64,000 nt of DNA from Bacteroides propionicifaciens DSM 19291 = JCM 14649. Its GTDB lineage: Bacteria > Bacteroidota > Bacteroidia > Bacteroidales > Bacteroidaceae. Position numbers and translations under genes: made by a program. How positions within the stretch are numbered: position 1 is the first letter of the stretch; the number at the start of each line of letters is the position of its first letter. The DNA lies in the NCBI RefSeq assembly GCF_000375405.1, contig NZ_AQWS01000009.1, forward strand, positions 1 through 64,000. Direction: 5' to 3'. This document shows, one piece after another, positions 2,920-60,222 of the stretch. A model generated the notes under the pieces. It was not told the origin of the DNA. It saw only the letters and a program-made list of their open reading frames with translations, and made no database searches.

Positions 2920-3651
2920 TTATAATTTGAGATCAAACTCTTGACCTCGGTGTGTTAGCTTTAAAAATTGGGTGTCGTACTCTTTAGCTACTGCTTCGAA
3001 AGCATTAACCGCAATATAATCTTCATGAAAATGCATTGGAGCAATATAACTTGTTTCAATTTTCTCTATAAACTGTTTAGCTCCTAGGTAGTAGTCGGTT
3101 TGCAGGCGTTTATCGATGGGGAACATCACCAAATCAATAGCTTTGTATTTTCGATAGATATCTGTAAGCTCTCTGAGGTACCACTCTTCTGCTAGTTGAC
3201 TCTCTTGAGGAGATGATTCAGCTTTCCAGTGCCAATTATTTAGGTCACCAGCATGAAAAATCAACTTGTTTCCCAAGTGGATAAGAAATGAACTGCCTTG
3301 ATCCGTCGAACCAAATGCTTCAACACTTAGGTGTTCATCTTCGTAACTCTCACCTTTATCTATGTAGTAAGCATCTTCTTTCTTACTTAGTCGAGCGTCT
3401 AGTATATCTTTGGATAAAATATACTGAATATCGTTTCTCTTAGTTACCCAACTTAATATTTCAGGATTGAAATGGTCGTGGTGAGCATGAGTTGATAATA
3501 CATATAGTTTTTTCTGTGTCTTTAAGAGTTGATCATGTACTAAACCTTTGTCGTCCTGTTCAGAATCTTTGTAATAATCAACTATGATTACCAAATCACT
3601 AGTTTCGATTGCAAAGCAACTGTGGAATATATAATATAGTTTAATCTCCAT
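2920..3651 (-). CDS. MBL-fold metallo-hydrolase
   Basis: A 243-residue metallo-beta-lactamase-fold protein with no signal peptide. The metal-binding THAHHDHF motif (HxHxDH) lies near residue 75, a further ligand candidate is in HAGDLNNWH, and the last histidine is in PMHFHEDY. It resembles the UlaG/YycJ-like small hydrolases used on phosphoesters or lactones; the substrate is unknown. It lies 52 nt downstream of pdxH and 12 nt upstream of the DUF4468 gene, in a probable four-gene operon. Confidence 0.8.
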   Translation of the reverse strand: MEIKLYYIFHSCFAIETSDLVIIVDYYKDSEQDDKGLVHDQLLKTQKKLYVLSTHAHHDHFNPEILSWVTKRNDIQYILSKDILDARLSKKEDAYYIDKGESYEDEHLSVEAFGSTDQGSSFLIHLGNKLIFHAGDLNNWHWKAESSPQESQLAEEWYLRELTDIYRKYKAIDLVMFPIDKRLQTDYYLGAKQFIEKIETSYIAPMHFHEDYIAVNAFEAVAKEYDTQFLKLTHRGQEFDLKL

Positions 3652-3703
3652 ATTTCTGAATTAATCTTTGAAATAGAACAAAATCACGAATCTATAAGTT
3701 TGC

Positions 3704-4348
3704 TCACGGAGCTAATCTATTAATTTTCCATGAATTATTAGCCTCTTTCTCATATAAAAATCTGTCGTGAAGTCGGCTAGGTCTTCCTTGCCAAAACTCA
3801 ATGCGTATCGGTTCTACTTCGTAACCTCCCCAATTATTAGGACGTTCAATCTCCCTGCCCATCCATTTTGCTGATTCTTTAACAAATTCACGCATCAATT
3901 TGAATCGACTGGGTATGGGTTGACTTTGAGGTGATATTCGTGCACCAATTTGGCTTTTGTAGGGACGCGAGTGATAATATTCATCCGATATAGTGGGTGA
4001 AAGAGGCTTGGCAAAACCTTCAATATGTACTTGTCGCTCTAGTTCATGCCAAACAAAGCTGAGTGATATTGCTGGGTTTTCGGCTATATGTTTACCCTTA
4101 CGGCTTAAATAATTAGTGTAAAATACAAACTTTTGGTCAACCACTTCTTTAAGTAAGACTGTCCGAGTAGAAGGGTGACCTTCTGGAGAAACTGTTCCAA
4201 CAAGCATGGCTGTTGGTTCGTTGACCTCCTGACTAATTGCTTGACCTAGCCATTGCTCAAAAAGCAAAAAAGGATTATCAGGAATTTGATTCCTCGATAA
4301 CCCTCTCTTAGTATACTCTTGTCTTACAGATCTTAAATTTAAATCCAT
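3704..4348 (-). CDS. pdxH: Pyridoxamine 5'-phosphate oxidase
   Basis: A 214-residue FMN enzyme that oxidises PNP or PMP to pyridoxal phosphate. Family features are present: N-terminal MDLNLRSVRQEYTKRGL, the FMN-binding strand PSTRTVLLKEV, SRKGKHIAENP, SRPYKSQIGARISPQSQPI and the C-terminal IEFWQGRPSRLHDRF, which carries the conserved substrate-binding Arg/His. Length is typical and the start is unambiguous. It is probably the first gene of the minus-strand operon running to the glyoxalase gene. Another PLP-homeostasis gene, yggS, occurs elsewhere in the window. Confidence 0.97.
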   Translation of the reverse strand: MDLNLRSVRQEYTKRGLSRNQIPDNPFLLFEQWLGQAISQEVNEPTAMLVGTVSPEGHPSTRTVLLKEVVDQKFVFYTNYLSRKGKHIAENPAISLSFVWHELERQVHIEGFAKPLSPTISDEYYHSRPYKSQIGARISPQSQPIPSRFKLMREFVKESAKWMGREIERPNNWGGYEVEPIRIEFWQGRPSRLHDRFLYEKEANNSWKINRLAP

Positions 4349-57260: not shown

Positions 57261-57345
57261 GGAGAGATGGCAGAGTGGTCGATTGCGGCGGTCTTGAAAA
57301 CCGTTGAGCTGTGAGGCTCCGGGGGTTCGAATCCCTCTCTCTCCG
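57261..57345 (+). tRNA. tRNA-Ser (anticodon TGA)
   Basis: An 85-nt tRNA. The acceptor arm GGAGAGA pairs with TCTCTCC (57338-57344), then discriminator G57345. The anticodon loop CTTGAAA carries TGA, reading UCA serine codons. The long variable arm typical of tRNA-Ser follows (GAGC ... GCTC), then the T loop TTCGAAT. CCA is not encoded. The foreign element begins directly after it, so its 3' end is the probable integration site. Confidence 0.96.
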
Positions 57346-57460: not shown

Positions 57461-57645
57461 TGACGGCATAATCCTATGTTTTGATGGTCATTTTTCGGTC
57501 AATTTCTGCTACACATACTGCTACACAAAAAATGCAGCAGCAAAAAATGTAGCAGTGACGGTATTCTGAATACCATATTGACGGCATCAACTCTTTCTTT
57601 TTCAACGTATTAAATATTAACTTTGCAGCCGAGTGCTACACAAAA
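57461..57645. repeat. Clustered short repeats, candidate recombinase/excisionase arm sites
   Basis: TGCTACACA occurs at 57507-57515, 57519-57527 and 57634-57642, the last two extended to TGCTACACAAAA. An inverted CTGCTACA/TGTAGCAG pair lies at 57518-57525 and 57548-57555. TGACGG(C/T)AT occurs at 57461-57469, 57556-57564 and 57579-57587. A 15-nt palindrome GGTATTC-T-GAATACC is at 57560-57574. Such clustering between attL and an integrase gene fits arm-type protein binding sites. Confidence 0.55.
57618..57625 (+). promoter_or_regulatory. -7 box of the integrase gene
   Basis: TAACTTTG matches TAnnTTTG and ends 32 nt before the ATG at 57658. One TGCTACACAAAA repeat overlaps the expected transcription start, so the integrase could repress itself. 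Confidence 0.5.
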
Positions 57646-57657
57646 GAAAGATGCATT

Positions 57658-58884
57658 ATGAGAACAAATTTCAAGGTGTCCTTCTACCTACGCTCAAACT
57701 ATGAGAACAAAGAAGGAAAGTCGCCTGTAATGCTCCGGGTATTCCTTAACGGAGAGATGGCTAATTTGGGATCTACGAAAATCTTCGTGGACAAGACAGT
57801 ATGGAACAATGCCACAAGTCGGCTCAAAGGCCGGACGGCTGAAGCCTTATCCGCCAATGCCGCATTGGACTCTATTTCTGCTGCACTGAATAACATCTAT
57901 CACAAATTTGAGGACGACCCCTCCCTGTCATTGGAGAAAATCCGCTCGTTTTTTGTGGGGAAAGACAGGGAGTACACAACTTTTCTCCCTGTATTCGACA
58001 GGTTCAACGAAGATGTCAGACAGCGTGTAGGACATACCATCAGCAAGGACAGCCTTCAGAAATACAGCGTTTTGAGAAGACATTTCGCAGAGTTCCTTGT
58101 CTATAAGCATGGAAGGAAGGATATAGGGCTCACAGAGTTCACACCATCCGTAGTACAGGATTTTGAGTTGTATCTGAGCACGGTGGCGGGCTGCGCATAC
58201 AACACGTCTGTCAAGAAAATGAAGGCACTCAAGACCGTAACCATCTATGCGCAAAAACGTGGCTATCTTCTTCACGACCCCTTCCTCAACCACCGTTTTC
58301 ACTTGGAGCCTGTCAATCGCGGCTTTCTCACGGACGAGGAAATCATGAAGATTGCTAACAAAGAACTGGATATCCACCGCTTAGAACTGGTAAGGGACGT
58401 TTTCATATTCTCCTGCTTCACGGGACTGGCATATATTGACGTGTCCAATCTCACACCAGACAACATCGTTACGCTCGATGACAAGCAGTGGATTATGACC
58501 AAGCGGCAAAAGACGAATGTTGAAACAAATGTACTCTTGCTGGATATACCCAAGAGTATCATCGCCAAGTACAGCCACAAGACCTATCGAGACGGCAAAC
58601 TGTTTCCCATATTAACGAATCAGAAAACCAACGCATATTTGAAGGAAATTGCCGATATTTGTGGCATCAAGAAGAATCTGACCTTCCATCTTGCCCGCCA
58701 TACATTCGCCACAATGTCACTGAGCAAGGGCGTTCCGATGGAAAGCGTGTCGAAGATGCTGGGACATACCAACATCAAGACCACACAAATCTACGCCCGC
58801 ATCACCAACAAGAAGATAGAGCATGATATGGAGCAACTTTCTGGCAAGCTCGACAAGTTCAACAAGGCGATGGGAATCCGATAA
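57658..58884 (+). CDS. int: Tyrosine recombinase (integrase) of the element
   Basis: A 408-residue site-specific recombinase that should integrate and excise the element at tRNA-Ser. An arm-binding-like N-terminus (1-95) is followed by a SAM-like core-binding domain (about 108-205) and the catalytic domain (about 220-400). Catalytic residues: His344 and Arg347 in HLARH, His370 in LGHTNIKTTQIY and the nucleophile Tyr379. The first catalytic Arg is replaced by Ala258 in CFTGLAYIDV. Bacteroides CTn integrases such as IntDOT are known to lack this Arg. It is followed 32 nt later by the DUF1896 gene. Confidence 0.95.
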   Translation: MRTNFKVSFYLRSNYENKEGKSPVMLRVFLNGEMANLGSTKIFVDKTVWNNATSRLKGRTAEALSANAALDSISAALNNIYHKFEDDPSLSLEKIRSFFVGKDREYTTFLPVFDRFNEDVRQRVGHTISKDSLQKYSVLRRHFAEFLVYKHGRKDIGLTEFTPSVVQDFELYLSTVAGCAYNTSVKKMKALKTVTIYAQKRGYLLHDPFLNHRFHLEPVNRGFLTDEEIMKIANKELDIHRLELVRDVFIFSCFTGLAYIDVSNLTPDNIVTLDDKQWIMTKRQKTNVETNVLLLDIPKSIIAKYSHKTYRDGKLFPILTNQKTNAYLKEIADICGIKKNLTFHLARHTFATMSLSKGVPMESVSKMLGHTNIKTTQIYARITNKKIEHDMEQLSGKLDKFNKAMGIR

Positions 58885-58916: not shown

Positions 58917-59384
58917 ATGGAAACGACAAAGAAAGAACTTTCCTTCTTCTGTCTGAAGTTAGAGAACTACCTCAGTGAGCATTTCCCTGAAATGCTGAGT
59001 GACAAACCATTCATAACGGCAAGAGCGGATGAAGCCCTTACCACTTACTGCGATGCAGTGGCGCAAGGCTTCTCACATCCCGAAGCAGAGACAATGGCAA
59101 GCGAGGTGCTGCATCGAGGACTGCATTTCTCCAAGTACGATACGCTTGTTTCCGTGCTGGAGAATGAGTTTGAGAAGGAACTTCCCTCCCCACTCCCCGA
59201 AAGGCTTTCCCCGATACTTCTGAAAAACAAGGCTGTACAAAGCGTTTTCGGAAAATATGATCTTACGGACGACTTCGGCGCAAGTCCGGAGTATGAGAAA
59301 CTATACACCGAGCTGACCGGGACAATCGTTCTGCTCATCGAGGTCAATGGTCTGCCAACGATAGGCAGTGAGAGCATAACTTGA
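58917..59384 (+). CDS. DUF1896 domain-containing protein
   Basis: A 155-residue soluble, mostly helical protein typical of Bacteroides conjugative elements (DUF1896). Landmarks are LSFFCLKLENYLSEHFPEM, ARADEALTTYCDAVAQGFSHPEAETMASEVL and LHFSKYDTLVSVLENEF. Function is unknown. The gene directly follows the integrase, in the place often taken by excision or regulatory factors, and precedes a strongly structured intergenic segment. Confidence 0.85.
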   Translation: METTKKELSFFCLKLENYLSEHFPEMLSDKPFITARADEALTTYCDAVAQGFSHPEAETMASEVLHRGLHFSKYDTLVSVLENEFEKELPSPLPERLSPILLKNKAVQSVFGKYDLTDDFGASPEYEKLYTELTGTIVLLIEVNGLPTIGSESIT

Positions 59385-59393
59385 TGTAACACC

Positions 59394-59522
59394 ATCGGGA
59401 GCTTTTGTAGTGTCAAGAGCCAAGATAACCACTCTCCCCCACACACCAAGAGTTTGGGCAAACACTTGGCTTTGTATGGCAGAGTATCTTGTTATTGCTC
59501 TTGAACTATTAAAAGCCCCGAT
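59394..59522 (+). ncRNA. Highly structured 129-nt element, candidate cis-regulatory or small RNA
   Basis: A long imperfect hairpin fills the gap between two genes. Nested pairings: ATCGGG 59394-59399 with CCCGAT 59517-59522; GCTTTT 59401-59406 with AAAAGC 59511-59516; TAGT 59408-59411 with ACTA 59505-59508; CAAGAGC 59414-59420 with GCTCTTG 59497-59503; CAAGATA 59421-59427 with TATCTTG 59485-59491; CTCT 59432-59435 with AGAG 59481-59484; CCAAG 59446-59450 with CTTGG 59465-59469; GTTT 59452-59455 with AAAC 59460-59463, with loop GGGC. The outer stem ends 1 nt before the ATG at 59524. I do not recognise a known RNA family. Confidence 0.6.
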
Positions 59523-59523
59523 T

Positions 59524-59871
59524 ATGAATACAATCATCATGAATCAAGACGTTCACACACCTGCCTTCATCAAGGCAGACGCATCGAACAAGACCGACAG
59601 GAACAGGCAGCAGCCTACTTCTCCCAAGCAAGTCCGCCGCTTCGGTTGGACACGCTTCATCGAACCCGTCCTTCTGCTTTCCCTTGTCATCGGTGCAGTT
59701 TACCTTATCTCAAAGATGGTAACCCCGCAAGTCGTAACTGCCGTGTCAGTCATTGCAGGTTTTCTGATACTACGCTTTATAGTCCGTGTAATCCTGAAAG
59801 TGACATTTACGCTTCTGAGCTTTCTGTTCTGGCTGGCGATACTCTGCGCCAGCCTGCTTTGCGTGCTTTGA
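59524..59871 (+). CDS. Small two-helix membrane protein of the element
   Basis: A 115-residue protein. The N-terminal 45 residues are polar and basic; residues about 48-64 (FIEPVLLLSLVIGAVYLIS) and about 70-112 form hydrophobic segments, ending in a very hydrophobic ILCASLLCVL. Function is unknown; similar small proteins occur in Bacteroides conjugative elements. The frame is open upstream to 59410, but that part encodes the structured element, so ATG 59524 (or 59539) is chosen. A terminator follows. Confidence 0.6.
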   Translation: MNTIIMNQDVHTPAFIKADASNKTDRNRQQPTSPKQVRRFGWTRFIEPVLLLSLVIGAVYLISKMVTPQVVTAVSVIAGFLILRFIVRVILKVTFTLLSFLFWLAILCASLLCVL

Positions 59872-59908
59872 GAAGCACGGTTTTGTAAACCTTTCATTTA
59901 TATTTCAT

Positions 59909-59950
59909 AAGGTGGTTATCTCGCATTTTGCGGATAGCCACCTTTTTTGT
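59909..59950 (+). terminator. Strong terminator in the element
   Basis: AAGGTGGTTATC (59909-59920) pairs with GATAGCCACCTT (59933-59944); the loop itself holds CGCA/TGCG. Six T residues follow. It ends the integrase-proximal transcription unit. Confidence 0.85.
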
Positions 59951-60040
59951 TTTCCATTTCAAGCGTTGCACTTTCGCTTCTCTTCCACGGCTCCACAATA
60001 TGCGATGTCGCAAGACGGGCTGTTCCCTTTTTATCCGCAA

Positions 60041-60158
60041 AGGTAGTACGGGGCTTGCGGCTTTCCCAAGGTCGGTGCCTTCGGTTTGTCTGAAAAATCT
60101 CCATCCCTGCGGGTAGTATTTTTCGCCAAAACCTTGTGCAAGCCCCGCCCCGCTACCT
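60041..60158. ncRNA. Second structured intergenic element, candidate RNA
   Basis: Outer stem in two parts: AGGTAG 60041-60046 with CTACCT 60153-60158, and CGGGGCTTGCG 60049-60059 with 60137-60147. Inside are a hairpin AAGG 60068-60071 with CCTT 60078-60081, and a second arm GAAAAAT 60092-60098 with ATTTTTC 60118-60124 holding CCC/GGG 60105-60113. This three-way-junction layout and the lack of a convincing ORF suggest a structured RNA or protein-binding DNA element. The strand is not certain. Confidence 0.5.
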
Positions 60159-60222
60159 CGTGTATTGCTACAAAAAGGAATCAGCATACTCCGATCTTTG
60201 GACGCATAAAAAAAATGTCGCT

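Follow-up and report, generated by a model that had tools for sequence, protein, structure and literature searches.

What is a hairpin of 129 nt doing between two genes of an integrative element, with its last base lying one nucleotide before a start codon? This question was raised by an earlier note on a window of 64,000 nt from Bacteroides propionicifaciens (the whole stretch of DNA analyzed here), in which the gap between a gene of the DUF1896 type and the gene of a small membrane protein was described as a near-continuous, RNA-like hairpin. The structure was therefore evaluated with respect to its fold, its conservation in related elements, its predicted effect on translation, and the alternative functions that such a sequence may have.

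Fold and Placement of the Hairpin

RNA folding of positions 59394–59522 (plus strand) yielded one unbranched hairpin with a minimum free energy (MFE) of −52.5 kcal/mol, compared to −28.1 ± 3.2 kcal/mol for dinucleotide-shuffled versions, none of which was equally stable (0 of 200; z −7.5). Complementarity beyond chance, as claimed by the earlier note, was thus borne out, as was the extensive nature of the pairing; the count of about 43 base pairs has to be corrected, the MFE structure featuring 51. The minus strand folded with −59.1 kcal/mol (z −8.1), and z values of −8.3 and −9.2 were obtained for the same hairpin under DNA parameters. The hairpin is separated by 9 nt from the stop codon of the DUF1896 gene (59382–59384) and ends 1 nt before the ATG at 59524; it thus occupies 129 of the 139 intergenic bases, and its placement in the gap agrees with what had been described.

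The hairpin comprises segments that differ in their conservation. An outer stem of approximately 17 pairs, variable in sequence and covarying, is formed by the 5′ arm at 59394–59411 and the 3′ arm at 59506–59522, as deduced from the fold and from covariation. In the alignment, it is followed by a core, whose 5′ arm (TCAAGAG-CCAAGATA, 59413–59428) is nearly invariant in the main family and whose 3′ arm is divided into an outer half (GCTCTTGA, 59498–59505) and an inner half (ATCTTG, 59487–59492, with approximate ends). The two core helices, of 7–8 and 6–7 pairs, respectively, are separated on the 3′ side by a one-sided bulge at 59493–59497, which has a fixed length of 5 nt and a free sequence, being TTATT here and TTATC, TAACT, CCGGC, TCCAC, TTGTT, or ACATT in other versions. 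Comparison of homologues placed a variable inner arm together with the apical loop at 59429–59486. The core helices TCAAGAGC/GCTCTTGA and CCAAGAT/ATCTTG hardly ever vary across the alignment; because the core is nearly invariant, its pairing is supported by sequence conservation and not by covariation.

The loci L018, L024, L037, L084, L088, and L149, among others, carry an insertion of a 26-nt palindromic repeat, TTTCGAGCATAGCTCTCAACAACTCG, within the 3′ strand of the inner arm (for example, at L018:2928–2950, and with two copies in L037). The repeat also occurs elsewhere in related elements in either orientation, and is absent from the 64,000-nt window.

Genetic Context in a CTnDOT-Type Element

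Judged from its gene content, the host element of the hairpin is an integrative conjugative element (ICE) of the CTnDOT type, a self-transmissible element occurring in Bacteroidales of mouth and gut. It begins beside a tRNA gene (57261–57345) and encodes, in this order, a tyrosine integrase, the DUF1896 protein, the small membrane protein following the hairpin, and, beyond a terminator-like hairpin, unknown open reading frames (ORFs), PcfK, and PcfJ. Further along the contig, the other strand carries genes for TraQ, TraO, DUF4138 (TraN-like), TraM, TraJ, and TraG of the CTnDOT type. The integrase gene (57658–58884, plus strand) was assigned to the tyrosine recombinases by the domains Arm-DNA-bind_5, Phage_int_SAM_5, and Phage_integrase, and the DUF1896 gene (58917–59384, plus strand) by its match to PF08989 (E 4e-60). 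The third gene of the unit (59524–59871, plus strand) encodes 115 amino acids, hydrophobic stretches occurring from residue 44 onwards. No credible family was found for this protein in Pfam, NCBIfam, and PHROGs; it is 65–99% identical in most of the elements found. In one group of homologues (L052, L053, L057, L060, L009, and others), the membrane gene is extended by 72 nt (GTTCTTAAAA...GAAGTC), inserted in frame approximately 30 nt after the first ATG.

A Bacteroidales-type −7 promoter element, TAACTTTG, is located at 57618–57625 (plus strand), 32 nt before the integrase ATG. Since it represents the only exact match to TAnnTTTG on the plus strand between 57300 and 60300, it is the likely promoter of the unit consisting of integrase, DUF1896, hairpin, and membrane protein, and read-through from it probably accounts for transcription of the hairpin. 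The unit is closed by a hairpin resembling an intrinsic terminator (59908–59946, plus strand; z −7.9), followed by a T-run.

Between this terminator and the next ORF, a second long hairpin region was noticed (60036–60165), with z values of −3.2 on the plus and −4.2 on the minus strand, flanked by CAAAGGTA and the conserved GATCTTTGGACGCA. Among the fetched loci, it occurs in 59 different versions; it is one of the sites carrying the palindromic repeat in related elements, contains a promoter-like TAnnTTTG site on the minus strand at 60045, and also occurs in DUF1896 elements devoid of the first hairpin (L007 and L014).

Distribution among Related Elements

Using the downstream membrane protein as the query, 73 loci were fetched from contigs representing one genome per species. 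They originated mostly from oral Prevotella, Hoylesella, Segatella, Hallella, and Alloprevotella, and also from Phocaeicola oris, Porphyromonas, and Tannerella; accordingly, the nearest relatives of the element reside in Prevotella-type organisms and not in Bacteroides sensu stricto. The hairpin was located directly before the ATG in all but a few of these loci, the exceptions including L079, which is devoid of it, and L084, where it is decayed. Apart from the decayed copy, it constantly precedes the same membrane gene. More distant members (L010, L089, L092, L093, L094, L143, and L144) were obtained from genome and viral searches.

The DUF1896 stop codon lies 25–41 nt before the core in 74 of 74 loci, and exactly 30 nt before it in 64 of them. 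A covariance model of the hairpin matched 10 out of 251 genomes of the family, and every plus-strand match checked was situated at the same junction; the genome of the window itself contains a single copy. Conversely, a hairpin of this family was missing in five loci that have DUF1896 but not the membrane gene (L007, L012, L013, L014, and L105), and also at a weakly similar copy of the membrane gene in another context (L167). The hairpin is thus consistently tied to the gene junction, the negative cases being few. In one genome, a second copy of the module (L132, approximately 3363–3973; G459:C1:1798362–1798973) was observed, in which the membrane gene, beyond approximately its first 20 codons, is inverted with respect to the start and the hairpin that belong to it; the genome's other copy is normal.

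The most distant relative, L128 (G014), also has a DUF1896 gene upstream, and its membrane protein was matched at 27% identity. Its hairpin is longer and nearly unrelated in sequence, is located at the same junction, and follows the same plan of core, bulge, and core: TTCAAG.GC-AAAGGT pairs with ACCTTT-ATAAA-GCCCTTGAA, leaving a bulge of approximately 5 nt. The covariance model recovered this hairpin at an E-value of 4e-6 (cmsearch). Further kin of the L128 type were found neither on plasmids nor in viral contigs, and 393 genomes of the order yielded no closer ones.

Covariation and Strand

Compensatory changes in the stems, which the earlier note expected for an RNA function, were detected in an alignment of 32 sequences guided by the structure through the covariance model (A4). 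Of all cells in this alignment, 92.5% were paired. Double changes affected 13 pairs (shuffled: 5.9 ± 1.6; 13 reached in 0 of 500) and 37 cells (shuffled: 7.8 ± 2.2; 0 of 500), with the reservation that A4 leans towards the structure, because the alignment was fitted to it. When the structures were slid by 1–3 columns as a control, only 3–6 pairs and 5–17 cells with double changes were counted. A plain alignment made at first gave 8 double-change pairs, which was not clearly beyond its shuffles (5.7 ± 1.4; 48 of 500); the RNAalifold consensus was likewise poor, since in divergent members the 3′ outer arm is placed wrongly by MAFFT, a fault mended by the covariance-model alignment.

The compensatory changes are located in the outer stem and the inner arm, and individual examples are visible by eye in the raw sequences. 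In L143 and L144, the outer stem reads GAGTG.GGTGGT with a compensated ACCACC..CACTC, in L085, TGGT/ACCA replaces TAGT/ACTA, and L089 as well as L010 feature GCATT/AATGC. Taken from the sequences, the hairpin is a genuine structured element, whose arms have changed together in evolution. G-U cells outnumbered A-C cells by 31 to 21, and dropped to 14 versus 21 when one constant G-U column was left out, while the minus strand was the more stable one in 51 of 59 sequences. From the similar counts and the stabler minus strand, the plus strand is not singled out as the RNA, and because the wobble counts favor no strand, DNA-level and processing or small-RNA roles are kept among the alternatives weighed below.

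Two Start Codons behind the Stem

Besides the ATG at 59524–59526 (ATG1, plus strand), which the earlier note took as the start right after the hairpin, a second, in-frame ATG is present at 59539–59541 (ATG2, plus strand). The position of ATG1 was correctly recognized; it may not be the sole start, since two in-frame ATGs follow the hairpin in 74 of 74 loci, 15 nt apart in 67 and 18 nt apart in 7. ATG1 is predicted to be buried by the hairpin and ATG2 to be accessible: opening the region from −18 to +12 would cost 18.4 kcal/mol and 6.7 kcal/mol, respectively, in the window, and 17.0 ± 3.3 versus 6.7 ± 1.8 kcal/mol across 73 loci. For comparison, predicted opening costs at seven other ORF starts of the element range between 3 and 10 kcal/mol. 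Low barriers at ATG1 were calculated for L093 and L094 (8.3 and 4.9 kcal/mol), and in the distant relative L128 the reading frame begins at the position corresponding to ATG2.

In Prevotella bryantii, start-region hairpins of −5.2 and −11.1 kcal/mol lowered protein to 0.12 and 0.007 of an unstructured control, whereas one positioned at −21 caused no loss (PMC3155529). Taken together with the opening costs, these results suggest that ATG1 should be silent as long as the hairpin is closed, and that ATG2, which lies 16 nt past the stem, should allow at least some initiation. Control of downstream translation, as proposed in the earlier note, is therefore plausible; should initiation normally occur at ATG2, the effect of the hairpin on translation may be slight.

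Alternative Explanations

Among other functions of the hairpin, RNA processing or the release of a small RNA was considered, where cleavage by RNase III would split the integrase–DUF1896 mRNA from that of the membrane protein and set their stabilities, or the RNA would act in trans. A precedent is sib of phage lambda, where RNase III processing sets the stability of the int mRNA. The outer stem and the core provide approximately 30 nearly uninterrupted pairs, which is enough for RNase III in general, and the near-invariance of the core TCAAGAGCCAAGAT and its partner is as anticipated for a recognized or pairing element. On the other hand, no exact TAnnTTTG promoter was found just upstream on either strand, the hairpin is not followed by a U-run and thus offers no terminator for a free RNA, and, as far as checked, its occurrences in 251 genomes were confined to this gene junction. 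We regard this explanation as rather unlikely, and the same grade is given to a signal in single-stranded DNA, by which the hairpin, formed in the transferred strand at conjugation, would be a single-strand origin, a priming site, or a protein-binding hairpin for second-strand synthesis. The ICE does carry transfer genes of the TraG/J/M/N/O/Q type, the fold is equally striking with DNA parameters, the wobble counts show no strand preference, and ICEs can have single-strand origins with stem-loops (PMC4595007). Like sso1 of ICEBs1, the hairpin represents a conserved stem-loop sequence in an ICE; sso1, however, works in DNA and consists of three stem-loops with a pBAA1-like sequence (PMC4595007), whereas a single hairpin between two genes is found here. 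Moreover, a DNA signal would need no fixed position between stop and start codon, yet all 74 loci have it, and DUF1896 elements without the membrane gene are also without the hairpin.

Far less probable are two explanations that the earlier note had left as alternatives. A miniature inverted-repeat mobile element (MITE) would account for a long inverted repeat within a mobile element, but the single copy in the genome, the placement of every plus-strand match checked among 251 family genomes at this junction and at no unrelated site, the fixed flanks in all loci, and the compensatory changes led us to reject it as highly improbable. The frame 59410–59523, which is open in the window and might encode an N-terminal extension of the membrane protein, has practically no chance of being coding: it is broken by a 1-nt difference between GAT-ATG and GATT-ATG and by further length variation in the hairpin and in its distance to the ATG, and its GTG start is not conserved among homologues. 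Two further candidates were dismissed, namely an intrinsic terminator, the stem being followed by TATGAATACAATC and not by a U-run, and a translational attenuator with a leader peptide, there being no conserved short ORF and the GTG at 59410 being absent in several homologues.

Comparison to Known Structured RNAs

In agreement with the earlier note, which recognized no named RNA family, Rfam release 15 (4227 families) gave no match above a gathering threshold on the hairpin, nor any sensible one at E-values up to 10, and only tRNAs were reported for six divergent homologue loci. Likewise, neither of the two papers in which DUF1896 was encountered evidently concerns this hairpin. By description, the hairpin may be likened to the small RNA RteR of CTnDOT-type Bacteroides conjugative transposons, which belong to the same broad class of ICEs; RteR is a trans-acting repressor of the transfer operon and differs in its location. 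The tetQ leader, a translational attenuator of a Bacteroides ICE gene, also represents structure ahead of a start codon in an ICE of Bacteroidales. It uses a short leader peptide, whereas one long hairpin between two genes and no conserved leader ORF are present here.

A human-microbiome catalogue describes palindromic structured-RNA candidates of Bacteroidetes near integrases (PMC8040213). As far as its descriptions go, the hairpin resembles them in featuring predicted structure on both strands, in not being a terminator, in belonging to Bacteroidetes, and in its proximity to an integrase gene. The candidate HMP2_4078 (109 bp, Bacteroidetes) is described there as lying near D5_N and a phage integrase (PMC8040213), and thus differs, on its description, from a hairpin located beside DUF1896 and the membrane gene. 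The hairpin is set apart from the 3161 candidates of this catalogue (PMC8040213) by description only; it may represent a new family, or may be one of them.

Proposed Function and Implications

The best explanation in our opinion, with a probability of roughly one half, is that the hairpin acts as an intercistronic, cis-acting regulatory RNA of the membrane gene by occluding the start site. Residing within the transcript of integrase, DUF1896, and membrane protein of the CTnDOT-type ICE, the closed hairpin would block initiation at ATG1, so that the membrane protein would be made weakly or from ATG2 only. Opening or cutting of the stem would then allow the other start to be used or increase the yield. 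Candidates for this step are a protein reading the invariant core and the 5-nt bulge, a cut of the RNase III type in the long duplex, and ribosomes that complete DUF1896 within a few nucleotides of the stem base. Expression of the membrane protein might thereby be tied to the state of the element, for example, to excision or transfer. It is a speculative and quite improbable extension of start-site occlusion that a factor encoded by the ICE or the host opens a switch at the core and the 5-nt bulge and thus picks between the two starts of the membrane protein, coupling the output of the integrase operon to the cell-surface state of donor or recipient.

The hairpin would represent a new RNA family in a widespread group of Bacteroidales ICEs, about whose post-transcriptional control little is known. 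Being small and occurring in many oral relatives of Prevotella, the module would make the choice of start codon and mutants of the stem directly accessible to experiments. Furthermore, the pair of DUF1896 and the small membrane protein, neither of which has a known function, would be marked by the hairpin as a regulated unit.
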